Below are positions 1,654 to 39,548 of a stretch of DNA of 43,048 nucleotides, in pieces (the stretch's first letter is position 1; every line of letters begins with the position of its first letter). This stretch comes from a virus. Below the pieces are notes generated by a model, which saw only the letters and a list, made by a program, of their open reading frames with translations, made no database searches and was not told the origin of the DNA. The position numbers and the translations under genes were made by a program. The DNA is taken from positions 1 to 43,048 of IMG/VR virus record IMGVR_UViG_3300027759_000155. The stretch is one strand, 5' to 3'.

Positions 1654-4530
1654 ATGTCATATACCAGTCAATTGAAACCTCAAGTCGATCTTCCTGTATG
1701 GGAATGGATGAGATTTGCTCCTGCTGGCACCGTTGCTCTATCATCTACTTGTCGAGATGATCGCTACATCTATTATACAAGTTCCTCTGTGTTTTGGCGT
1801 TATGATACATACAGTGACGGATGGCAACAATTAGCAACACCAGTCATCTCTACAACAAACGTTGTTTCAATGTATTATTCACGTGAGTCCGGCCATAATG
1901 GCAGAGCTATAAGTTCAGGCGGCGGGAACAATACAATTAAAATGGCTGCTCTTAATGGAGCGTGCATGGTTGGCTATAAGATTCGTATTGTCAGCGGAAC
2001 AGGAGCTGGACAGGAACGCACCATCACTGCAGTAAGCGCGCCAACCATTGAAGAACGCGGAGTTGCTGCTGGTAACTTTACTGATCGTTTTCAAGATTCT
2101 GGTTCTACTGGGCCGGCAACAAAGGCATGGAGACTTAATCAGTGGCGCGATTATCAAGGTCGCGGCGAGGCGGGTACAGTTCCTGGAGTAACTCGTAAAA
2201 TTTTATTTAATGGACCAACTTTTGCACCATTTTCTGATCCATACTATGCAGGCATTGTTACAAACTGGGGTGCAGCTGGTTCAGTCGTTTCGGCCAGCAG
2301 CTTTTTTCAATTTGAATCACAAATTGTAACAGTCAATAGCAACTGGACAACCAATCCTGACTCTTCATCAAAATTTGTTATATTGAGTGGCGGCATTTGG
2401 ATGGTTTCGTCAAATGCTGCATCAACTTTCTTTACTACTCAATACTATGATGTATTGGCTGACGTATGGTTCCAAAAAACTTCCAATGGAATCATATTCA
2501 ATGCGGCATTAGGAACGGAAATCAATTTGATTGGATTCAATGAAGCTGGCGGAGCAATTGCAACTGGTACTGCCACAAGCGGTGCAGCAAAATCATTGAC
2601 CAACAGCGCATTAAGTTTAGCAACTGATACATATGCCAATTTTCAAATACGAATTACGGCTGGAACTGGCATAGGACAAACTCGCACAATCTTATACAAT
2701 ACTGCATCAACCATATATATTACTCGTGCATGGGACACAAATCCTTCATCTGATAGTGTATATCAAATTTGGCCTGATACAGATAAACTTTACCTGGTAG
2801 GTAGTGGTATGAGCAGCATTGCTCAATATAGTATTGAAAACGATCAATGGTCAACTGGTCGTCAATATGAAGGCGGGTTTTTACGATCAGGTGCGGCTAC
2901 TGCATCAAATGGTGAATCATTTGCAATAGCCAGCATTACAAAAGCCACTGGTGGCATTACCGTATTAAACGCTACACCTACCGCTGGTGGCACCGGCTAT
3001 CTGGTTGATCAGCTGTTAACTCTTGCTGGTGGTTCTGGCGGAGTTGCACGCATTACCGGTGTGGCTGCAGCCACTGGTGCTGTCACAAGTGTTATACTAG
3101 AAACCTGCGGCAGCGGTTATACATCCTCATCAAGTGGTATTGCAACAACAGTTAATACCACTGGCGGCTCTGGTTGTACATTGGCTGTTACAACTGCGGC
3201 AGAGGTTGCAACCGTTACTTTTGCTACTAACATTGCACCCAATTTTAAAATTGGAGAAAGTGTTACAATTAGCGGTGCAAGTGCGGCCAACTATAACGGA
3301 GTCAAAACCGTTTTGGCTGGAACGGTAACGGGCAACGCGCCTTTTGCTGGTACTATTCAATATGCTGCTCCTGCTGATGCTGCGCCAACCTTTGTTGCAC
3401 ACACCGGAACAACGATAGTGGATTCAACTAAAAATTGGGTTGTTAATGAGCATGTCGGAAAAATTTTTCAATGTACATCGACAGCATCTCCAAGTGCCAC
3501 AGGATTTGCCAGAAAAATAACAGCCAATACAGCCAACACTATCACATGGGTGCAGACTGCTGGCACTATTCCAACATTTGCACGCTACGCAATTATTGAT
3601 GAAAAATGCTTTATGACTGATATGTCTGCAGGATCACGAGTTGCCGGTGGACGCAGCGGCGTTGCAACTGGCGGCACAACCACCACACTTGTTGATTCAA
3701 CTAAAAATTGGCCAATTAATTATTGGAGCAATACTTTACCAACTGGTACAGGCAACTCTGCACGCAAAGTGCGTATTATTGCCGGTACTGGAGTAGGCAA
3801 TGAATTGACTATAACCAACAATACAGCAACCACTTTAACATTTGCTACACAATCATTTACACCTGACACTACAACGCTATATCAAATTTTAGATGGTCAC
3901 GGACAAGCCACTGGCGGGAGCTCAACTACACTGATTGACACCACTCAAAACTGGGGCACCAACGTATGGCTCGGAAAGCGTGTAAGATTTGTAGCAGGTG
4001 ATGCTGGTAGTATTGAAGTTACAATTACAGGTAATACTCAAACGACACTTACATTTGGTACAACCTCCGCAGTAAGCGTAAGCACTGCATACAGTATATT
4101 GGAACCAATACAACGTGGTGCTGGTGCTGGTGCGCAAATCCTTACCAACAGTACAATCACTGCAAATAATAATAGAATTGCAATACTATGGAGAGGGGGT
4201 GGTGTATCGGAAGTTGGGCGTTATAATTTCAATAGCATGCAATATGACGCACTCACTGCATCACCATTTCCTGAAGCACTAACTACTGGCAGCATGTATG
4301 CATATGATGGTGCTGATCGAATCTACTTCCATTCAAATGCAACTGGTCGCATAATGTATTATGATGTAACCAAAAACACTATTACCAACAGCGGTGTGAT
4401 TCCTTATGGTATGGGCGGTGCAATTGTTGGAAACCGTATGGAAATATTTACCACCGTGGATGGCCTAAAATATCTTTACATCATGAGACACAGCAGCAAT
4501 GAAATGTGGAGAACACTACTATTCAACTAA
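1654..4530 (+). CDS. Large virion adhesin with propeller-like ends and repeats
   Basis: A 958-residue protein, the largest structural gene here. The N- and C-terminal parts have Kelch-like spacing of aromatic and glycine residues (FWRYDTYSDGWQQL; IAQYSIENDQWSTG; IMYYDVTKNTITNSG), suggesting beta-propeller blades. The middle holds two repeat types: GG(T/S)GY...GG(S)GG...GAVTSV segments at about residues 445-500, and a DSTKNW...VRI.AGTG.G...IT.NT.TTLTF repeat at about residues 581-818. Both types are common in long virion proteins of T4-like aquatic phages. There is no signal peptide or catalytic motif. It is probably a fibre or surface adhesin that contacts the host or environment. The fold is inferred from pattern only. 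Confidence 0.65.
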   Translation: MSYTSQLKPQVDLPVWEWMRFAPAGTVALSSTCRDDRYIYYTSSSVFWRYDTYSDGWQQLATPVISTTNVVSMYYSRESGHNGRAISSGGGNNTIKMAALNGACMVGYKIRIVSGTGAGQERTITAVSAPTIEERGVAAGNFTDRFQDSGSTGPATKAWRLNQWRDYQGRGEAGTVPGVTRKILFNGPTFAPFSDPYYAGIVTNWGAAGSVVSASSFFQFESQIVTVNSNWTTNPDSSSKFVILSGGIWMVSSNAASTFFTTQYYDVLADVWFQKTSNGIIFNAALGTEINLIGFNEAGGAIATGTATSGAAKSLTNSALSLATDTYANFQIRITAGTGIGQTRTILYNTASTIYITRAWDTNPSSDSVYQIWPDTDKLYLVGSGMSSIAQYSIENDQWSTGRQYEGGFLRSGAATASNGESFAIASITKATGGITVLNATPTAGGTGYLVDQLLTLAGGSGGVARITGVAAATGAVTSVILETCGSGYTSSSSGIATTVNTTGGSGCTLAVTTAAEVATVTFATNIAPNFKIGESVTISGASAANYNGVKTVLAGTVTGNAPFAGTIQYAAPADAAPTFVAHTGTTIVDSTKNWVVNEHVGKIFQCTSTASPSATGFARKITANTANTITWVQTAGTIPTFARYAIIDEKCFMTDMSAGSRVAGGRSGVATGGTTTTLVDSTKNWPINYWSNTLPTGTGNSARKVRIIAGTGVGNELTITNNTATTLTFATQSFTPDTTTLYQILDGHGQATGGSSTTLIDTTQNWGTNVWLGKRVRFVAGDAGSIEVTITGNTQTTLTFGTTSAVSVSTAYSILEPIQRGAGAGAQILTNSTITANNNRIAILWRGGGVSEVGRYNFNSMQYDALTASPFPEALTTGSMYAYDGADRIYFHSNATGRIMYYDVTKNTITNSGVIPYGMGGAIVGNRMEIFTTVDGLKYLYIMRHSSNEMWRTLLFN
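3397..4110 (+). repeat. Tandem DSTKNW/AGTGxG repeats in adhesin
   Basis: Three protein repeats open with TxxVDSTKNW, TTLVDSTKNW and TTLIDTTQNW (near 3409, 3682 and 3923), each followed by a short beta segment. Units two and three are most alike (VRIIAGTGVG, then VRFVAGDAGS). The first two share the DNA word gattcaactaaaaattgg. Confidence 0.6.
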
Positions 4531-4712: not shown

Positions 4713-4901
4713 TTATGCCTCAGGCAAACAAACATCTTTAAACTCATCTTTAGTCAGATGCAGTTTTGCAGAGTTTGCTCTGAAAAATACCTTGTCTCCT
4801 TCAATTCGATACACAATTATATAGTCTACAATACCGCATTTCATGCCGTATAATAGATCTTTAAATTCACTCTTCACATACACACGTTCATTTATTTTCA
4901 T
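4713..4901 (-). CDS. Small minus-strand protein, unknown
   Basis: The only likely gene on the minus strand. From the ATG at 4901 it encodes 62 residues: MKINERVYVKSEFKDLL, a hydrophobic strand (GIVDYIIVYRI), EGDKVFFRAN, and a Lys/Asp-rich end. The beta-rich small-domain look (KINERVYVKSEF, EGDKVFF) resembles SH3- or KOW-like phage proteins, but no family is recognised. A start 8 codons upstream (4925) is possible but would overlap the divergent glf promoter. An AATAAATA box sits 8 bases upstream of the chosen ATG, matching the promoter-to-start spacing of other genes. That spacing is the main reason for this start. Confidence 0.5.
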   Translation of the reverse strand: MKINERVYVKSEFKDLLYGMKCGIVDYIIVYRIEGDKVFFRANSAKLHLTKDEFKDVCLPEA

Positions 4902-4909
4902 ATAGATAT

Positions 4910-4917
4910 TATTTATT
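4910..4917 (-). promoter_or_regulatory. Late-like box, minus strand
   Basis: On the minus strand this reads AATAAATA, one change from TATAAATA, 8 bases before the ATG at 4901. It abuts the -35 of the divergent glf promoter. Confidence 0.4.
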
Positions 4918-4918
4918 A

Positions 4919-4947
4919 TGTACACCGGTAAAGTTTTGTGATAAAAT
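4919..4947 (+). promoter_or_regulatory. Early-type promoter for glf cassette
   Basis: TGTACA (4919-4924), 17-base spacer ending TTTTGTGA, then TAAAAT (4942-4947). It has the same layout as the promoters before the CobS-like ATPase gene and gp43. The ATG follows after 7 bases. Confidence 0.6.
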
Positions 4948-4954
4948 ATAATAT

Positions 4955-5953
4955 ATGAATAAAAATGCTAAAATAATTGGATGTGGACTCTCTGGAATTA
5001 CCGCGGCGGTACTCTTAAGAGAAAAAGGTTATGCTGTTGAAATTTTTGAGACTCGACCACATATTGGTGGAAACTGTTATGATGGGTTGATTTGCAACAC
5101 CCTTGTTCATCACTATGGCCCTCATATTTTTCATACTGATGATGAAGAAGTATACTCCTTCTTGAGTCGATATACAGAATGGACCTCGTTTAAATTGCGG
5201 CCACAAGGAGAGACTCGACTTGGACGGGTCTCACTGCCATACAGTAAAAAGACTGTAGCCGAACTTGGTCGTGAGCTTTCACAGGAAGAGATTGTAGAGT
5301 ATATCTTTAAAGAGTACAGCGAAAAACAATGGGGTGTTGATTTTGATGTTATTCCAAAGACAATTACAAATCGAATTCCAAAGACTGCTGATTGTGAAGA
5401 TCCTACTTGGTTTGAAGGACAAAAATATCAATGTGTTCCAAAGGATGGCTATACTGCAATGTTTGAGCGTATGCTTGAAGGCATCACAGTTCACCTAAAC
5501 TGTACAGAAGATAGTTGGGTAGAGACTCGACAACCCGATGATTTGATTGTTTACACTGGTAAAATTGACTCATATTTCAAGTCTGTCCATGGACGTTTGC
5601 CATATCGTTCTCTTGAATTTAAACACACTGTACTCTGCGAAAAACAGGACACGTTTATTGTCAACCAAAACAACAGCACAAACCCAGCAACACGAGTCTA
5701 TGATCACAGTTATTTTACTCCAACACACACTGGCCCAACTGTTGTTACAAGTGAGTATCCTAAAGAGTGTGGTCCAGGTGATGTGCCATTTTATCCTATT
5801 CCATGGGGTGAGGGACAAGAAAAGTATCGTCAATATGAAGCCATGGCAGACGCTGAAGAGGGTGTAATTTTTGTTGGACGTCTTGCTACATACAAATATC
5901 TTGATATGTGGATGGCAATTAAACATGTTATGATTAAACTCAAAAACTTGTGA
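4955..5953 (+). CDS. glf: UDP-galactopyranose mutase
   Basis: A 332-residue flavoenzyme of the UDP-galactopyranose mutase family, which interconverts UDP-galactopyranose and UDP-galactofuranose, the donor of galactofuranose in surface glycans. Visible marks are an N-terminal dinucleotide-binding loop (GCGLSG, residues 9-14), an acidic end of the second strand (EIFETRPHIGGN), HHYGPHIFHT, the EKQWG segment, GRLPYRSLEFK and the C-terminal flavin-binding signature GRLATYKYLDM. It is somewhat shorter than the roughly 370-residue bacterial enzymes, but all landmark segments are present and in order, so it looks functional. It starts a three-gene overlapping operon with two glycosyltransferase-like genes. 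The gene is driven by an early-type promoter, unlike its late neighbours, suggesting action on host or phage glycans before assembly. Confidence 0.9.
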   Translation: MNKNAKIIGCGLSGITAAVLLREKGYAVEIFETRPHIGGNCYDGLICNTLVHHYGPHIFHTDDEEVYSFLSRYTEWTSFKLRPQGETRLGRVSLPYSKKTVAELGRELSQEEIVEYIFKEYSEKQWGVDFDVIPKTITNRIPKTADCEDPTWFEGQKYQCVPKDGYTAMFERMLEGITVHLNCTEDSWVETRQPDDLIVYTGKIDSYFKSVHGRLPYRSLEFKHTVLCEKQDTFIVNQNNSTNPATRVYDHSYFTPTHTGPTVVTSEYPKECGPGDVPFYPIPWGEGQEKYRQYEAMADAEEGVIFVGRLATYKYLDMWMAIKHVMIKLKNL

Positions 5954-6624
5954 AGCTTGCATTGGTAATACGAGGTCACGTTCGTGATGGTCTGTTTAGT
6001 GTTGACTTAAAACACCACATAGACTATATGCAACAACGTGGCCATGAGGTTGACTTATTTTTACACAGTTGGTCAGAGTCTGAAGCACAGTGTTCTTATC
6101 GTGAGCTTGATCGGTCATATCTTTTTAGTGTGACGCCTGAATATTTGAGTGCTTATTTTAAGGGATATACTGTTAAAAAAATCATAGTTCAGGATGACTC
6201 TAAGATTAAACTTCATGGAAATTTAAATGGGTGTGTGTCATCTACAAAATGTCCAGTTATAGCGTGGAAACGTATGTGGGCTGGAAAATATGAGATTATG
6301 AAATATGTCTATGACGCACATCGCGGAGGTTATGATCAAGTTATAAGCACTCGTTATGACATGTTTACAAATCCAATGTGCGTTACACCAAACTCAGTAT
6401 TAAAATCAATTGTAGGTGCTAATCAACCACTATCATTTAGATATCCGATATGTAAGCAGCTTGGAATGGTTGGCATTGATAATTATTATTGTGGAAACAT
6501 TGCAAAAATGCTTAAATTGACCCATGATTTTTATAAAGATCTTGATCGCATTTCACGACACTATCCATCACTCTCACATCAAGAGGAAATGGTATATAAA
6601 TATGCAAGCGAGCATCTCCTATGA
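5950..6624 (+). CDS. Glycosyltransferase-like protein, paralogue A
   Basis: A 224-residue protein starting at a GTG that overlaps the glf stop by four bases (GTGA). Its opening (LALVIRGHVRDG), the DLFLHSW segment and the STRYDMF motif resemble bacterial and viral polysaccharide-locus proteins with (I/V)xGQxR...VDVFIHTW...RTRFD motifs, generally considered glycosyltransferases. The acidic residue in RYD could bind a metal-nucleotide sugar. This assignment rests on remembered motif patterns, not a search. It is a close paralogue of the next gene. Co-transcription with a mutase that makes UDP-galactofuranose suggests a galactofuranosyltransferase, which is inference. Confidence 0.55.
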   Translation: MKLALVIRGHVRDGLFSVDLKHHIDYMQQRGHEVDLFLHSWSESEAQCSYRELDRSYLFSVTPEYLSAYFKGYTVKKIIVQDDSKIKLHGNLNGCVSSTKCPVIAWKRMWAGKYEIMKYVYDAHRGGYDQVISTRYDMFTNPMCVTPNSVLKSIVGANQPLSFRYPICKQLGMVGIDNYYCGNIAKMLKLTHDFYKDLDRISRHYPSLSHQEEMVYKYASEHLL

Positions 6625-7292
6625 AGCTTGCATTTTGTATACGCGGTCACCTGCGTGACGGACTAACTGACAACAGACTCTTAAACTATATAAGTTTGTT
6701 AAGTAAAAGCCATGAGGTTGACTTATTTTTGCACAGTTGGTCAGAGTCTGAAGCAAAGAGTTCGTATCGCACGCTTGATCAGTCTAAAAGATTTGATGTT
6801 AAGCCAGAACACCTAGAAGATTATTTCCATGGGTGTGCAGTTAAAAAAATTATAATTGATGATGACACACACATGCAATTACATGGAAACCTTGTTGGAC
6901 ACTTACCGGGAAACAAATGTCCAGTCGTTGCATGGAAGCGAATGTGGGCTGGTAAACATGCTCTAATGTCACATGTCTTAAACCATGAAGGTGACTATGA
7001 CAGAGCTGTAAACACCCGGTATGATATGTTTACAACACCAGTGTGCTATACTCCAACTAAAAATTTATTAAAGCTGACTGAAGAGTCTGCATTGTTGTCT
7101 ATCAAATATCCAAAATATTATAGACTCTTAAAGGGAGTTGACAACTACTATGCCGGTTCGGTAAAAACATTGCATTCGATCAGTGATGATTTTCATCATA
7201 ATCTCGATCATATAATACTAAACACCCCTGTACGGGGCTTTCATGAAGAAATTTTCCATAAGCGGCTTGTGGAACTTGGTTATTGCGTTTAG
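6621..7292 (+). CDS. Glycosyltransferase-like protein, paralogue B
   Basis: A 223-residue protein overlapping the previous stop by four bases (ATGA). It aligns end to end with paralogue A: LAFCIRGHLRDG against LALVIRGHVRDG, an identical EVDLFLHSWSESEA, CPVVAWKRMWAGK against CPVIAWKRMWAGK, and NTRYDMFT against STRYDMFT. The DNA is nearly identical over about 45 bases at 6042 and 6709, so this is a tandem duplication that has since diverged, mostly in the last third. Two copies suggest different acceptors or linkages in one short glycan. The function is inferred as for paralogue A. The cassette ends here, with no terminator hairpin seen. Confidence 0.55.
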   Translation: MKLAFCIRGHLRDGLTDNRLLNYISLLSKSHEVDLFLHSWSESEAKSSYRTLDQSKRFDVKPEHLEDYFHGCAVKKIIIDDDTHMQLHGNLVGHLPGNKCPVVAWKRMWAGKHALMSHVLNHEGDYDRAVNTRYDMFTTPVCYTPTKNLLKLTEESALLSIKYPKYYRLLKGVDNYYAGSVKTLHSISDDFHHNLDHIILNTPVRGFHEEIFHKRLVELGYCV

Positions 7293-7305
7293 AAACACAA
7301 CATTT

Positions 7306-7313
7306 TATAAATA
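7306..7313 (+). promoter_or_regulatory. T4-type late promoter box
   Basis: Exact TATAAATA. It lies 9 bases before an ATG at 7323 that opens a 27-codon ORF and 56 bases before the holin-like gene at 7370. Confidence 0.75.
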
Positions 7314-7322
7314 CTATAATAC

Positions 7323-7406
7323 ATGCGCAGACATTATATGATGCTCAAAATTAATAGAATAGTTTATAAATGGAACCAGAAAAATCTTTACTACGGGAAT
7401 TCATAA
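7323..7406 (+). CDS. Possible leader ORF overlapping holin-like gene
   Basis: A 27-codon ORF (MRRHYMMLKINRIVYKWNQK...) whose ATG sits at the normal distance from the late box. It runs past the holin-like start in another frame. It may be a leader peptide that tunes holin translation, or chance. It shows no protein family resemblance. Confidence 0.2.
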   Translation: MRRHYMMLKINRIVYKWNQKNLYYGNS

Positions 7407-7690
7407 ATGGTGGATGGATTATCCCGCTAATTGGCGCGGCAGGAATGTTTGCTCGCCTCCTAACAGCGCACAAACACTACACAATATTAGAACAATTTAA
7501 AAATATATTGTCTGCAGCTATTGCCTCTTCTATTGCTTGGTTTATTTTGGAACAAACAGATATATCAAGTTTTTATAAAGCAATAACATATGGAATTATT
7601 GGTGTTGTATCACCAGAAATTATTGGTGGTATTATAAAGATTGCAAAGCATTTTGAGCGTAGTCCTGAAAAATTCATCAAAAAGCCATGA
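7370..7690 (+). CDS. Holin-like membrane protein
   Basis: A 106-residue protein with three hydrophobic stretches: about residues 14-31 (GGWIIPLIGAAGMFARLL), 44-61 (ILSAAIASSIAWFIL) and 71-92 (AITYGIIGVVSPEIIGGII). The tail is charged and basic (KHFERSPEKFIKKP). Small size, a three-helix layout and a basic C-terminus fit phage holins of the multi-span class, which open the inner membrane for the endolysin. No endolysin gene is visible in this window, so the lysis assignment rests on topology alone. It overlaps a second small membrane-protein gene by four bases. Expression should be late, from the box at 7306. Confidence 0.5.
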   Translation: MEPEKSLLREFINGGWIIPLIGAAGMFARLLTAHKHYTILEQFKNILSAAIASSIAWFILEQTDISSFYKAITYGIIGVVSPEIIGGIIKIAKHFERSPEKFIKKP

Positions 7691-7874: not shown

Positions 7875-7882
7875 TATAAATA
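7875..7882 (+). promoter_or_regulatory. T4-type late promoter box
   Basis: Exact TATAAATA, 7 bases before the gp13 ATG at 7890. Confidence 0.85.
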
Positions 7883-7889
7883 TTATAAT

Positions 7890-8636
7890 ATGGCAAAACC
7901 AACATCACGTCAAGAATTAATAGACTATTGCTTACGAGCATTGGGAGCTCCCGTACTTGAAATCAATATCGATGAAGATCAAATTGAGGATCGTGTTGAT
8001 GAGGCGCTTCAATTTTATCAAGAGTATCACAGCGATGCTGTTGTTCGAACATTTATTAAACATCAGGTTACACAGACGGACTATGACAACGACTATATTA
8101 CACTGCCTGATCAGCTTATAAGCGTGCTTCGTGTATTAAACCTAGCAACCGGTGATGCTGCTGATATGTTTAGCGTAAAATATCAACTCTTTTTAAATGA
8201 CTTGTATGGTTTACGCAATCCAGAGTCACTTGTAAACTATGAGATGACAAAGCAATATATGAATGCAATTGAACTTATATTGACTGGTAATTCTCAACAA
8301 ATTACGTTTTCTCGTCACATGAATCGTCTTAGCATTCAAGACAACTGGAAAGAATTTGTTTCACTTGGTCAGTACATCATTATTGAAGGCTATCAAACAA
8401 TTAATCCAAATACCTATACTGATGTCTATAATGACATGATGCTTAAAAAATATTTGACGGCTCTCTTAAAACGCCAATGGGGAATTAACCTCATAAAATT
8501 TGAAGGCATGACGCTTCCAAGCGGAGTGACAATAAATGGTCGTGCAATATACGATGATGCACTCAATGATATTGAAAAGATTGAGACCGACTTTGATAGT
8601 AAATATCAAATGCCGCCGGATTTTTTCTGCGGCTAG
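7890..8636 (+). CDS. gp13: Neck protein gp13
   Basis: A 248-residue homologue of the T4 neck (head-completion) protein gp13, shorter than the T4 protein of about 309 residues. Recognition rests on the N-terminal helix pattern (SRQELIDYCLRALGAP, then EDQIEDRVDEALQFYQEYH), the SVLRVLNL strand, the LGQYIIIEGYQ segment near residue 170 and the KRQWGINLIKFEG segment, together with its place as first gene of the 13-14-15-16-17 series. In T4, gp13 with gp14 forms the ring beneath the portal where the tail joins. A GIY-YIG endonuclease gene separates it from gp14. It has its own late promoter. Confidence 0.85.
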   Translation: MAKPTSRQELIDYCLRALGAPVLEINIDEDQIEDRVDEALQFYQEYHSDAVVRTFIKHQVTQTDYDNDYITLPDQLISVLRVLNLATGDAADMFSVKYQLFLNDLYGLRNPESLVNYEMTKQYMNAIELILTGNSQQITFSRHMNRLSIQDNWKEFVSLGQYIIIEGYQTINPNTYTDVYNDMMLKKYLTALLKRQWGINLIKFEGMTLPSGVTINGRAIYDDALNDIEKIETDFDSKYQMPPDFFCG

Positions 8637-8658: not shown

Positions 8659-8666
8659 TATAAATA
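8659..8666 (+). promoter_or_regulatory. Late promoter box of homing gene
   Basis: Exact TATAAATA, only 5 bases before the ATG at 8672. By T4 geometry (+1 six bases after the box) the transcript would begin at the A of ATG. Confidence 0.8.
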
Positions 8667-8671
8667 GAAAT

Positions 8672-9403
8672 ATGAAATATTTTTACTTATATAAAACAAC
8701 TAATTTGATTAGTAATAAATTTTACATTGGTGTTCATGCTTCGCACAAAGAACATGATTTAAACTATTTTGGTTCTGGTATTGCTATCAATAGAGCTATT
8801 GAAAAATATGGAATTGAAAATTTTAAAAATGAAATAATATCGTATCATGAATCACTAAAAGCGGCATATGACGCAGAACGCATTTTAGTAAATGAAGAAT
8901 TAATAAAACAAAAAGATTGCTATAATATGATTTGTGGCGGAGTTGGAGGAAATGGTGAGAATTTGATGACACCTGAAAATTTAATTAGAATGAAATTACC
9001 AAAATCACAAGAAGAAAAAAATAAGATTTCTGAATCATTAAAAGGCAAATGTTATTTAACAGAAGATGGTAGAAGAAGATTAAGTGATGCTGCACGAGGA
9101 AATACATATGCAAAAGGTATGACATACACACATAGTGATGAAGCAAGAGAAGCTATTTCAAAATCACGGTTGGGTAAAAAGATGTCGGAAGAAACTAAGA
9201 AAAAATTTAAAGAAAATAGAAAAGGTAAAGGAACTGGAGAAAATAATGCAATGTCTCGTGAAGAATGCCGAAATAAGGTTAGAGATAGTAAAATTGGTTT
9301 ACAAAAATTAGTTCATCCAGAATATGGTAATAAATTAGCTCGTCCAAATTCTGATAAATGGAGTAATTTAATATCTCAAGGATATATACCACTCAATAGT
9401 TAG
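8672..9403 (+). CDS. GIY-YIG homing endonuclease (Seg-like)
   Basis: A 243-residue free-standing homing endonuclease. The GIY-YIG nuclease core is at the start: YLYKTTN (5-11), FYIGVH (17-22), FGSG (33-36), a basic helix with Arg41, acidic DAERILVNEE and CYNMICGG. The C-terminal half is very basic with NUMOD3-like repeats (SEEKNKISESLKGK-type and GKKMSEETKKKFKE), which bind DNA in this family. Such genes copy themselves into cleaved, endonuclease-free genomes. It separates gp13 from gp14 without disrupting either, is more A+T-rich than its flanks by eye, and carries its own late box. Confidence 0.88.
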   Translation: MKYFYLYKTTNLISNKFYIGVHASHKEHDLNYFGSGIAINRAIEKYGIENFKNEIISYHESLKAAYDAERILVNEELIKQKDCYNMICGGVGGNGENLMTPENLIRMKLPKSQEEKNKISESLKGKCYLTEDGRRRLSDAARGNTYAKGMTYTHSDEAREAISKSRLGKKMSEETKKKFKENRKGKGTGENNAMSREECRNKVRDSKIGLQKLVHPEYGNKLARPNSDKWSNLISQGYIPLNS

Positions 9404-9414
9404 ATTAAATATTC

Positions 9415-9422
9415 TATAAATA
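9415..9422 (+). promoter_or_regulatory. T4-type late promoter box
   Basis: Exact TATAAATA, 6 bases before the gp14 ATG at 9429. Confidence 0.85.
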
Positions 9423-9428
9423 CATATT

Positions 9429-10358
9429 ATGCCTCGTAGTGTTTATTTTAGTCAGACGTATCGTACTGAACAAAATCTTTTAGAAGATTTGATGATAGAA
9501 TCCATGCAAATCATGGGGCATGACGTGTTTTACATTCCTCGTAAAATTGTAAAACAAGACTTTATCTTAAATGAAGATATAATTTCAAGCTTTGATGCTG
9601 CGTTTTCTCTTGAAATGTATGTTGAAAGTGTTGATGGTTTTGAAGGTGATGGTGATCTTATGACCAAATTTGGTTTGGAAGTGCGAGATCAAGTTACACT
9701 TGTCTGCAGTCGTAAACGTTGGAATGCACTCATTGGTCGTCATGGCTATACAAATGACAGTGTACGTCCGCGTGAAGGAGACCTCATCTTTTTACCACTC
9801 TCTGTTGGACTCTTTGAAATTAAATTTGTTGAAGATAAAAATCCGTTTTTCCAACTTGGAGGCAGTGGCCGCAGCAAAGGAAACAACCCAACATTTAAAC
9901 TTATCTGCGAACTCTTCGAATATGGTGGTCAAGAAATTGACACTGGCATTGATAGCATTGATAATATACAGACTGCTCACAGTCAAAGTTATCGTGCTGA
10001 AGTTAATTTTAATGGTGGTCAGATGCATGAGCTTGGTGAAACCCTAACAATAACACTTCCATCTGGAGTTGTTGGCTCGGCCGAAGCGCTTCGCTATGAA
10101 CATATTGGTAATACGGTAATTTTAAGTGTTGGTAACTTAACATTCAACGATGAAAAGTTTCATACATTAGTTAATGGCACAACATTTATAGGTCAGCAGT
10201 CAAATACAACATCAACAATTGTAGATGTAATTGGGTTACTTGATGGTGACGCGGCGCTCTTTGAAAATGACGACCTAACCCAAAACAGTTCATTTGAAGT
10301 TGAAGGTCATGACTATATTGATTTTAGTGAAAGCAACCCATTTGGAGAACCAAGTTAA
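9429..10358 (+). CDS. gp14: Neck protein gp14
   Basis: A 309-residue homologue of T4 neck protein gp14, which joins gp13 to complete the head so that a tail can attach. The N-terminal part (NLLEDLMIESMQIMGHDVFYIPRK, read here in short form; DAAFSLEMYVESVDGFEGDGDLMTKFG) is characteristic of the family. It is longer than the T4 protein (about 256 residues), with an extra beta-rich C-terminal region at about residues 190-290 containing an NTSTIVD-type loop. The gene follows its own late box and is followed closely by gp15, so gp14-17 probably share transcripts. Confidence 0.87.
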   Translation: MPRSVYFSQTYRTEQNLLEDLMIESMQIMGHDVFYIPRKIVKQDFILNEDIISSFDAAFSLEMYVESVDGFEGDGDLMTKFGLEVRDQVTLVCSRKRWNALIGRHGYTNDSVRPREGDLIFLPLSVGLFEIKFVEDKNPFFQLGGSGRSKGNNPTFKLICELFEYGGQEIDTGIDSIDNIQTAHSQSYRAEVNFNGGQMHELGETLTITLPSGVVGSAEALRYEHIGNTVILSVGNLTFNDEKFHTLVNGTTFIGQQSNTTSTIVDVIGLLDGDAALFENDDLTQNSSFEVEGHDYIDFSESNPFGEPS

Positions 10359-15021: not shown

Positions 15022-15029
15022 TATAAATA
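15022..15029 (+). promoter_or_regulatory. T4-type late promoter box
   Basis: Exact TATAAATA, 9 bases before the gp19 ATG at 15039. Confidence 0.85.
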
Positions 15030-15038
15030 AATAAAACA

Positions 15039-15584
15039 ATGAGTAATTTATCAAATTTTAAAAACGCGTTTGCTGGTGGCGGAGCTCGTCCCAACCTGTT
15101 TGAAGTTGAACTTTATTTTCCAGAAGGAGTTTCTGGAAATAATGTCTCTTCCAAAAGCAGATTCTTGGTAAAGGGAGCTCAATTGCCTGCAAGTGTAATT
15201 GCACCAATTGAAGTACCATATCGTGGTCGTAAATTAAAGGTTGCTGGTGATCGTACATTCGAACCATGGACAATTACAGTAATTAACGATGTTAATATGG
15301 AAATCCGTAATGCACTTGAAGAGTGGATGAATCTTATCAATAGACATGCATCAAACACTTCTTCTGGTCGTGTTGGTCCATTAAACTACTACAAAGATTT
15401 AGCGGTAAAACAATTGAGTCGTGATGGTTCAAGCGAAGCTCCTACGAAAGTATACACTTTTGTTGGTGCATTTCCAACAAATATTTCGCAAATTGAACTC
15501 AATTACGAAACAAATGATCAGATTGAAGAGTTTACTGTTGAATTTCAATATCAATATTGGACTTCAAATAGTACTCTTGGCTAA
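15039..15584 (+). CDS. gp19: Tail tube protein gp19
   Basis: A 181-residue tail tube subunit (T4 gp19, 163), which stacks in hexameric rings to form the DNA conduit inside the sheath. Family marks are the N-terminal RPNLFEVELYFPEG, a loop ending KGAQLPASVIAPIEVPYRGRKLKVAGDRTFEPWTITV (quoted here in two parts: KGAQLPASVIAPIE and YRGRKLKVAGDR), FEPWTITVIND, and a C-terminal EEFTVEFQYQYW strand. It sits in the T4 order 18-19-20 and has its own late promoter, in keeping with high late expression. Confidence 0.93.
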   Translation: MSNLSNFKNAFAGGGARPNLFEVELYFPEGVSGNNVSSKSRFLVKGAQLPASVIAPIEVPYRGRKLKVAGDRTFEPWTITVINDVNMEIRNALEEWMNLINRHASNTSSGRVGPLNYYKDLAVKQLSRDGSSEAPTKVYTFVGAFPTNISQIELNYETNDQIEEFTVEFQYQYWTSNSTLG

Positions 15585-18083: not shown

Positions 18084-18091
18084 TATAAATA
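18084..18091 (+). promoter_or_regulatory. T4-type late promoter box
   Basis: Exact TATAAATA, 7 bases before the gp21 ATG at 18099. Confidence 0.85.
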
Positions 18092-18098
18092 GTTTATA

Positions 18099-18749
18099 AT
18101 GAAGTTAATCACTGAACATACAGAAAACATCAAATATTTTTCTGAATCAGCCGAAAATGGCGAAAAGAAATTTATCATTGATGGTGTTTTTATGCAGGCA
18201 GAACAGGTTAATCGTAACCGTCGAGTCTATCCTAAAACTGTGCTTGAAAAAGCAGTCCAAAAGTATGTTACAGAATATGTCAATAAAGGACGTGCTGTAG
18301 GTGAACTTAATCATCCTGAAGGTCCAGCAATTAACCTTGACAAGGTATCACATCGTATTACAGAACTTCAATGGTCTGGAAATGATGTCTATGGAAAAGC
18401 ACTTATACTTGATACCCCGATGGGTAAGATTGTAAAAGGACTGCTTGAAGGTGGTTGCCAACTCGGCGTGTCTAGCCGTGGTATGGGGACAGTTGCAAAT
18501 CGTAATGGTCAAACTATGGTCAATGATGACTTTGTCCTATCAACAGTGGACATTGTTCAGGATCCAAGTGCGCCATCTGCATTTGTCAATGGGATTATGG
18601 AAGGTGTAGAGTATTTCTATGAAGGAAACTCTATTGTTGCCGTAACAGCTGACAAATACAAAGATAAAATTTCAAAAATGACAAAGAACCAAATTGCCGA
18701 AGAGCAAATACAACTCTTTTCAAACTTTTTAAAGGAAATAAAATTTTAA
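18099..18749 (+). CDS. gp21: Prohead core protease gp21
   Basis: A 216-residue serine protease of the T4 prohead, matching T4 gp21 length (212). The catalytic His lies in GELNHPEG (His72) and the nucleophile in QLGVSSRGMG (Ser125 or Ser126), the two signatures of this herpesvirus-protease-like fold. Other marks are MQAEQVNRNRRVYP and DIVQDPSAPSAFVNG. It matures the prohead by cutting scaffold, core and capsid proteins after Glu in (I/L)-x-E sites. It has its own late box and precedes scaffold gp22. Confidence 0.93.
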   Translation: MKLITEHTENIKYFSESAENGEKKFIIDGVFMQAEQVNRNRRVYPKTVLEKAVQKYVTEYVNKGRAVGELNHPEGPAINLDKVSHRITELQWSGNDVYGKALILDTPMGKIVKGLLEGGCQLGVSSRGMGTVANRNGQTMVNDDFVLSTVDIVQDPSAPSAFVNGIMEGVEYFYEGNSIVAVTADKYKDKISKMTKNQIAEEQIQLFSNFLKEIKF

Positions 18750-38619: not shown

Positions 38620-38627
38620 TATAAATA
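38620..38627 (+). promoter_or_regulatory. T4-type late promoter box
   Basis: Exact TATAAATA, 6 bases before the ATG at 38634. Confidence 0.78.
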
Positions 38628-38633
38628 TATTAT

Positions 38634-39548
38634 ATGTGTGTAGTCGCAGTCAAGTACATCAAAAAATATGGTTGGGTCGGTGCAAAAAACCGAGATCGCA
38701 ATTATTCTACCTCAATTAAGGTAGTAAACTCAAACCGTGATGGCATACAACGCCTCTTTATTGATGATCAAACAACACGCTGGACTGAAGGTGTTAATGA
38801 ATATGGCCTGTCAATTATCTCTGCATCTTTTAGTGTAAAGAGCGATGAGAAAGAAGGCGAAAAGGTGATGTCAAAAGACAAGAAAAAGAAAGCAATTGTA
38901 AGTCCAGACGGGCTCGCAATTCGTAATGCACTTCGTCGCAAAACTCCAAAAGAGGCTGCGCAATATCTTATTGAAAAAGAACTTGCTGGGGCAACATTTA
39001 TCTTTAATCCTGAAAAGTGTTACCTTCTTGAAGGTGGATTTACTGTTAAAAAGGATGATGCTACAGTTGAAAACCCACGTAAGTACATCTACAACCTTAA
39101 AGAAATAACACAAGACGAAGATCACTGTGTTCGTACAAATCATGGCATTGACTTAAAGATGCTTGGATATAGCGCAAAGGCATCTGATCCGCATCTTCAA
39201 GCTGCACGCAAAAGTTCAGAGACGCGTTGGGAAATTGTAAACAACTATCTTCGCGATAATGTAATTAATGACCCACATGAATTTCTTGAGGCTATGTCTC
39301 AAAAACCAAACAAGGATAAGTTTATGAATCCAATTCGTACTGGAGACATTAAAAAAGCTGAGATGGTTACAACAGGCCAACTCTTACTTGTTGCAAAAGA
39401 GCGTACACTTCATTATCGTCCTATATATTCCGCTGTAGAGTTTGACTATAAAAAATTAAACTCTGAAGAGGCCAAAACATTCTTTGAAATTATTTCTAGT
39501 AGAAAATTACTTTCTTTCAAAGAATATGTGCTGCCCGAATATAAATAA
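38634..39548 (+). CDS. Ntn-hydrolase (Cys nucleophile), NRDE/C45-like
   Basis: A 304-residue protein with the hallmarks of N-terminal-nucleophile amidohydrolases: Cys2 directly after Met (MCVVAVKY), GAKNRDRNY at 17-25 (compare GxNxD in choloylglycine hydrolases and ANRDE in TANGO2 proteins), GVNEYGLSIISA at about 53-65 (compare GMNEKGL) and RTNHGI near 163. Removal of Met would expose Cys as nucleophile. The family cleaves amide bonds in acyl-amino acids, penicillins or peptides. The substrate cannot be told. It has its own late promoter, so it may act in lysis, host-wall change or virion processing. No signal peptide is present. Confidence 0.7.
   Translation: MCVVAVKYIKKYGWVGAKNRDRNYSTSIKVVNSNRDGIQRLFIDDQTTRWTEGVNEYGLSIISASFSVKSDEKEGEKVMSKDKKKKAIVSPDGLAIRNALRRKTPKEAAQYLIEKELAGATFIFNPEKCYLLEGGFTVKKDDATVENPRKYIYNLKEITQDEDHCVRTNHGIDLKMLGYSAKASDPHLQAARKSSETRWEIVNNYLRDNVINDPHEFLEAMSQKPNKDKFMNPIRTGDIKKAEMVTTGQLLLVAKERTLHYRPIYSAVEFDYKKLNSEEAKTFFEIISSRKLLSFKEYVLPEYK

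Follow-up and report, generated by a model that had tools for sequence, protein, structure and literature searches.

A UDP-galactopyranose mutase cassette of a T4-like phage and a possible role in DNA glycosylation

A phage gene for UDP-galactopyranose mutase (UGM) followed by two transferase-like genes raises the question of which acceptor would receive galactofuranose (Galf). We analysed such a cassette in a 43,048-nucleotide stretch of viral DNA (IMG/VR record IMGVR_UViG_3300027759_000155, positions 1 to 43,048), called the window in the following. The window belongs to a T4-like myovirus, as T4-type terminase, neck and head-tail genes and late promoters are all present.

Layout and promoter of the cassette

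The cassette and its borders comprise the following features.

4713..4925, minus strand: small divergent gene of 70 aa, the upstream border of the cassette, with 36 ORFs at the same place in related loci
4919..4947, plus strand: early-type promoter TGTACA-17-TAAAAT, 7 nt 5' of the UGM start codon, kept in relatives
4955..5953, plus strand: UGM, 332 aa, recognised by a Pfam GLF match of 185 bits, PDB homologues and invariant catalytic residues
5950..6624, plus strand: A, predicted GT-A glycosyltransferase of 224 aa with a GTG start, from an AF2 model and Foldseek PDB matches
6621..7292, plus strand: B, paralogue of A, 223 aa, 48% identical to A and in the same alignment (A1)
7306..7313, plus strand: T4-type late box TATAAATA, 3' of the cassette and 5' of the holin-like gene
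7370..7690, plus strand: holin-like gene, the downstream border in relatives, from weak Phage_holin_3_3 and phrog holin matches and synteny

UGM, A and B are co-oriented and overlap by 4 nt at each junction (GTGA for UGM/A, ATGA for A/B). The same overlap was found in all 11 distinct junctions of UGM with an A/B gene and in 10 of 11 junctions between two A/B genes. Because the overlaps recur in relatives they are not due to chance, and they suggest coupled translation of the cassette genes. A preliminary description of the locus as a mutase followed by two overlapping, co-oriented paralogues with four-base overlaps was thus borne out by the coordinates, the GLF score, the A/B identity and the recurring overlaps.

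A generic sigma-70 scan of the window returned 62 sites versus 52.4 ± 7.6 expected from shuffles and gave no support for a promoter. A phage-specific promoter class was defined as T[TG]TACA-N16..18-TA[TAG]AAT. In a relative of 173,760 bp, IMGVR_UViG_3300044729_003129 (G001), the coding strand had 23 sites of this class and the opposite strand 2, with about 1.2 expected per strand; the window had 4 forward sites and 1 reverse site with 0.5 expected. The form (G)T[TG]TACA-17-TAAAAT 5' of UGM was conserved in relatives despite changes in the spacer. Upstream of 26.3 kb in the window UGM was the only gene with a promoter of the class, and between about 18.7 and 83.3 kb of G001 the UGM promoter was the sole one. 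A T4 early pattern whose gap was set to 14 or more yielded zero matches, because the real gap is shorter. The sigma-70-like form of the class and its position in the genome indicate that it is probably an early one. On the other hand, the virion genes flanking the cassette carry T4 late boxes, and TATAAATA was found 16 times in the window versus 3.8 expected. The difference between an early-type cassette promoter and late boxes at its virion neighbours, also claimed beforehand, held against these counts. In the window (7875-7890, 8659-8672, 9415-9429, 15022-15039, 18084-18099, 38620-38634, and others) and in G001 the late boxes usually end 5-9 nt 5' of a start codon; given T4 spacing, many late transcripts would then have little or no leader.

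The mutase and its two predicted transferases

By its sequence the gene at 4955-5953 is a member of the UDP-galactopyranose mutase family. Its Pfam GLF score of 185 bits compares with a cut-off of 26.3, the GLF domain and an N-terminal FAD/NAD-binding Rossmann domain are both present, and a PDB sequence search retrieved UGMs of known structure with E-values down to 3e-58. The active-site positions checked, i.e. the H60/H63-type loop, Y155, W160, R174, R280, Y314, R343, Y349 and D351 in Klebsiella numbering, were placed on the viral UGM through alignment to the PDB homologues and were the same in all 71 viral sequences. These residues presumably serve the substrate and flavin sites. Compared with Glf (PF03275, PHROG 9677) the phage protein has a full domain match and keeps the active-site His, Tyr, Trp, Arg and Asp, yet it lacks about 35 residues relative to the Klebsiella and Deinococcus enzymes, in a gap between two aligned parts, and has Trp in place of Klebsiella Tyr185.

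UGM in phages as such is already known from scores of genomes; 88 of 50,697 phage records matched it. Phage UGM genes are mentioned in PMC6630229, PMC10611076 and PMC9611531, whose relevant passages give no system or acceptor, and the portions of the literature consulted assign these genes solely a host cell-wall role. The preliminary description knew of no phage galactofuranosylation system of this form; the genes had been recorded before, and the passages that mention them name neither a system nor an acceptor.

The paralogues are less easily placed. None of the 33 A/B members reached the cut-off of a Pfam family, and a PDB sequence search gave no match either. Yet an AF2 model from the 33 sequences had a pLDDT of 90.1, and Foldseek matched it at E<1e-3 to ABO transferases, glycogenin, the collagen galactosyltransferase COLGALT1 and one GDP-mannose pyrophosphorylase. 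Viral structure matches included cyanophage proteins listed without function and annotated glycosyltransferases. The PDB matches had TM-scores of 0.38-0.48 at about 10% identity. Because these TM-scores are modest, they support assignment of A/B to the GT-A nucleotide-sugar-binding fold class and do not extend to sugar and acceptor. At this level the predicted structure agrees with the transferase-like character first ascribed to the paralogues. A/B share the predicted fold class with GT6 (ABO), GT8 (glycogenin) and GT25 (COLGALT1) but have an invariant R135-x-D137 in place of D-x-D, where the fourth core strand ends and this metal motif is expected.

A/B genes diverge fast, with 45-61% identity where UGM is 80-85% identical. 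The A/B gene of single-copy relatives is B-like, being 60% identical to B and 47% to A. A scan of bacterial genomes with an A/B pattern of limited reach produced 85 matches and no relatives among them. A/B thus appear to be a family still without a name, missing from Pfam and with a GT-A fold by prediction, whose members have so far come from viral contigs only. That they may be galactofuranosyltransferases is suggested solely by their operon with UGM.

Relatives and a candidate DNA glycosyltransferase

The cassette is syntenic in more than 30 viral contigs (L003-L036 and L067) with the order small reverse-strand gene, cassette, holin-like gene and gp13-like gene, and with 0, 1 or 2 A/B copies. 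Counted over distinct UGM sequences with the holin-like gene in the locus, 13 had two copies, 8 had one and 2 had none, zero cases being counted on fetched loci. In L028, L029 and L031 UGM directly precedes the holin-like gene without A/B. Because the tree places the L028 UGM within an A/B-bearing group, A/B were probably lost there. An A/B gene 5' of UGM was seen in L035, L046-L048, L060, L065, L078 and L079. In L079 a uvsW-like gene, A/B, UGM, a 222-aa gene, an SbcD-like metallophosphatase gene and an SMC/SbcC-like gene follow each other in the replication block of a T4-like phage. Scans for further loci of the L079 and L060 types gave nothing useful. The idea of a cyanophage was dropped, as psbA was absent from eight relatives, most of them fragments. 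A phage contig (L112:212-7271) holds a long glycan cluster of GT90, UGM, an A/B relative, a pyruvyl transferase, GT92, a sulfotransferase, GT25 and two more transferases.

In the clade of the window, candidate genes for DNA modification are known only from one long relative, G001, whose single UGM is the orthologue of that of the window (84% identity). Its gene g136 shares about 60% identity with T4-like genes that bear a dCMP hydroxymethylase annotation, and has Asp at the position where thymidylate synthase has Asn. The order g136, g138, uvsX in G001 equals the T4 order 42, b-gt, uvsX; in T4 b-gt lies between gene 42 and uvsX (PMC6024577). For g138 (L122:17145-18173) a moderately confident model (pLDDT 77.7) had T4 beta-glucosyltransferase (BGT; 1qkj) as its top PDB fold match with an E-value of 1.3e-5 and a TM-score of 0.5; a PDB sequence search with g138 returned no match to BGT. 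We regard g138 as a predicted BGT-type DNA glycosyltransferase. Gene order and predicted fold are thus shared with the T4 system of DNA glucosylation, whereas the pairing of g138 with UGM implies another donor sugar, and g138 lies outside the window. Both g136 and g138 are missing from the window; by comparison with G001 they would be expected about 17 kb past its end.

The g138 family, phrog_14998, is listed without function; it has a BGT-like predicted fold and lies beside UGM in many phages. Homologues adjoin UGM in C48C1, in T4-like phages of Aeromonas, Stenotrophomonas and Erwinia (FBB1), in DSL-LC01 and in eight viral contigs (L148-L154 and L157). The locus was seen in full for Aeromonas phage AhMtk13a, and adjacency in the other Aeromonas records, with the cultured phages 25, Aes012 and phiAS4 among those that pair UGM with g138, and in the Stenotrophomonas records was taken from coordinates. 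In C48C1 a Tet/JBP oxygenase gene is the next gene upstream of the pair. A dCMP-hydroxymethylase-like gene precedes the pair in L154, as do genes of the ThyX type and for a sugar epimerase in L150, and in L153 an epimerase gene follows. Gordonia phages also carry g138 homologues, and none of the organism names listed with the UGM matches was Gordonia. Gordonia hosts make UDP-Galf for their own cell wall.

A search for g138 in 21 UGM records, mostly fragments, was positive for G001 and C48C1 only. G001 was also the only contig to combine an A/B-type UGM with g138, most contigs being fragments. No UGM was found on the other g138 contigs of the clade, which lack the terminase region too. One of the contigs with g138, L146, has the sample number of a near-identical contig of the window, and no link to the phage of the window was found.

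The system also resembles the cytosine arabinosylation of the RB69 type in that both occur in T4-like phages with donor-sugar genes of their own (PMC6024577, PMC13390438), with UGM in place of the arabinose genes. In Gualtarvirus an arabinose module of the RB69 type, close to a dCMP hydroxymethylase gene, contains a g138 homologue, while RB69 itself had no g138 match. Arabinose genes without a known arabinosyltransferase have been noted in some phages of a group that infects Morganellaceae (PMC8056088). The g138 family could fill this gap, on the assumption that Gualtarvirus belongs to that group.

DNA, host surface or virion as the acceptor

We favor, with slightly less than even confidence, the view that UDP-Galf feeds DNA glycosylation with A and B as further transferases, and we treat modification of the host surface as a close rival. 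Early in infection the phage UGM would convert UDP-galactopyranose to UDP-galactofuranose, and the main consumer would be DNA glycosylation. A g138-like enzyme of BGT type would put the sugar on hydroxymethyl- or hydroxy-cytosine of the phage DNA, which should shield it against host nucleases, and A and B may lengthen or diversify the sugar on the DNA, in the manner of second transferases in other T4-like phages, or act on another acceptor. We infer for this that the phage of the window carries g138 as G001 does. Gene 42 relatives may yield 5-hydroxy- rather than 5-hydroxymethyl-dCMP (PMC13390438), hence the exact modified base could be either. DNA of the RB69 type has one or two arabinoses that are thought to be added sequentially (PMC13390438), a parallel for the use of several transferases.

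DNA glycosylation is favored by the T4-like gene set of G001 with its single UGM, by the pairing of g138 homologues with UGM, by the retention of UGM where A/B were lost and by the early-type promoter. A role of A/B as the DNA transferase of its lineage fits L079, one incomplete contig of 83,606 bp, in which a dCMP-hydroxymethylase-type gene 62% identical to g136 is followed by uvsX, A/B and UGM are present, and g138 was found neither between gene 42 and uvsX nor elsewhere on the contig. Against DNA glycosylation stand the absence of g138 and g136 from the window and the moderate quality of the g138 model. Furthermore, the tree places the UGM of the window in another subfamily than the g138-adjacent UGMs, so that this clade would have exchanged or relocated its mutase. 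This subfamily often co-occurs with genes of a surface-glycan type, i.e. GT1, GT14/Branch, GT90 and methyltransferases, which keeps modification of the host surface a close second. There A and B would use early-made UDP-Galf to modify a host glycan, the LPS core or another, and thereby keep competing phages from adsorbing, a possibility we take seriously while leaning against it. The early-type promoter would suit it as well, as would the fast divergence of A/B relative to UGM, the neighbouring pyruvyl- and sulfotransferase genes in L112 and the position of the cassette beside a highly variable putative fibre gene. The same role has been proposed for glycosyltransferases of the host-recognition cluster of pelagimyophages, likewise aquatic T4-like phages with transferases near variable tail-fibre genes (PMC7029224); those are mostly GT8, whereas A/B belong to no Pfam family and lie with UGM under an early-type promoter. 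Yet L028, L029 and L031 retain UGM without A/B, a lipid-carrier or flippase gene was not recognised beside the cassette, the A/B-UGM pair of L079 sits in a replication block, and the one UGM of G001 coexists with g138.

The two other explanations are much weaker. Bacterial UGM can use UDP-arabinose, and the mutase might act on another UDP-sugar of this kind to provide a pentofuranose for DNA. The g138 homologues in arabinose modules and the arabinose on RB69-type DNA (PMC13390438) argue for this, but none of the UGMs examined had a recognisable arabinose-module gene as a neighbour, and the epimerase genes by g138-UGM pairs would fit a supply of UDP-galactose; we consider it very improbable. 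Decoration of the virion, in which the target of A and B would be a structural protein, for instance the fibre next to the cassette, accords with the location of the cassette between structural genes in this clade. It is unlikely, as the promoter is early-type rather than late and the A/B-UGM pair of L079 lies far from a structural setting, beside uvsW and SbcCD-like genes. Among the acceptors proposed in the preliminary description DNA has thus gained comparative support through g138, while the virion has lost ground.

Extending the preferred reading, DNA glycosylation, to other phages, we propose as possible but somewhat doubtful that several lineages put Galf on DNA, where UGM would supply the BGT-like g138 family and A/B would extend or vary the sugar in the clade of the window. 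In the literature searched, with most subscription papers and all preprints outside, neither galactofuranose in DNA nor a paper linking phage UGM to DNA modification was found; an earlier mention of UGM with Tet/JBP is possible. With UGM a known family and A/B an unnamed one, the whole would be a new form of phage glycosylation with a putative acceptor. The pairing of UGM with a BGT-like protein, a Tet/JBP oxygenase and dCMP-hydroxymethylase-type genes points to a directly testable role, the provision of a new DNA sugar. If true, this sugar would come from a donor many hosts do not make and would arm the DNA in a further way, of relevance to evasion of restriction and CRISPR.

Finally, some features of the locus and its relatives deserve mention. 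The putative fibre gene directly 5' of the cassette (1654-4530) is hypervariable; in L004 the fibre is 55% identical and UGM 99%. A GIY-YIG/NUMOD3 homing endonuclease gene (8672-9403) lies between the gp13-like and neck genes, and of this gene L015-L018 and L034 show no more than an ORF 96% identical to the last 50 residues of the endonuclease, possibly an insertion remnant. In the relative L177 (G002:C1:13525-16127) the gene of the terminase large subunit seems split in two, perhaps by an intron or a homing gene. In the UGM operon of AhMtk13a the g138 homologue is followed by a gene of 348 aa (L129:7117-8163), which has counterparts in Aeromonas phages 31 and 44RR, both without a g138 match.
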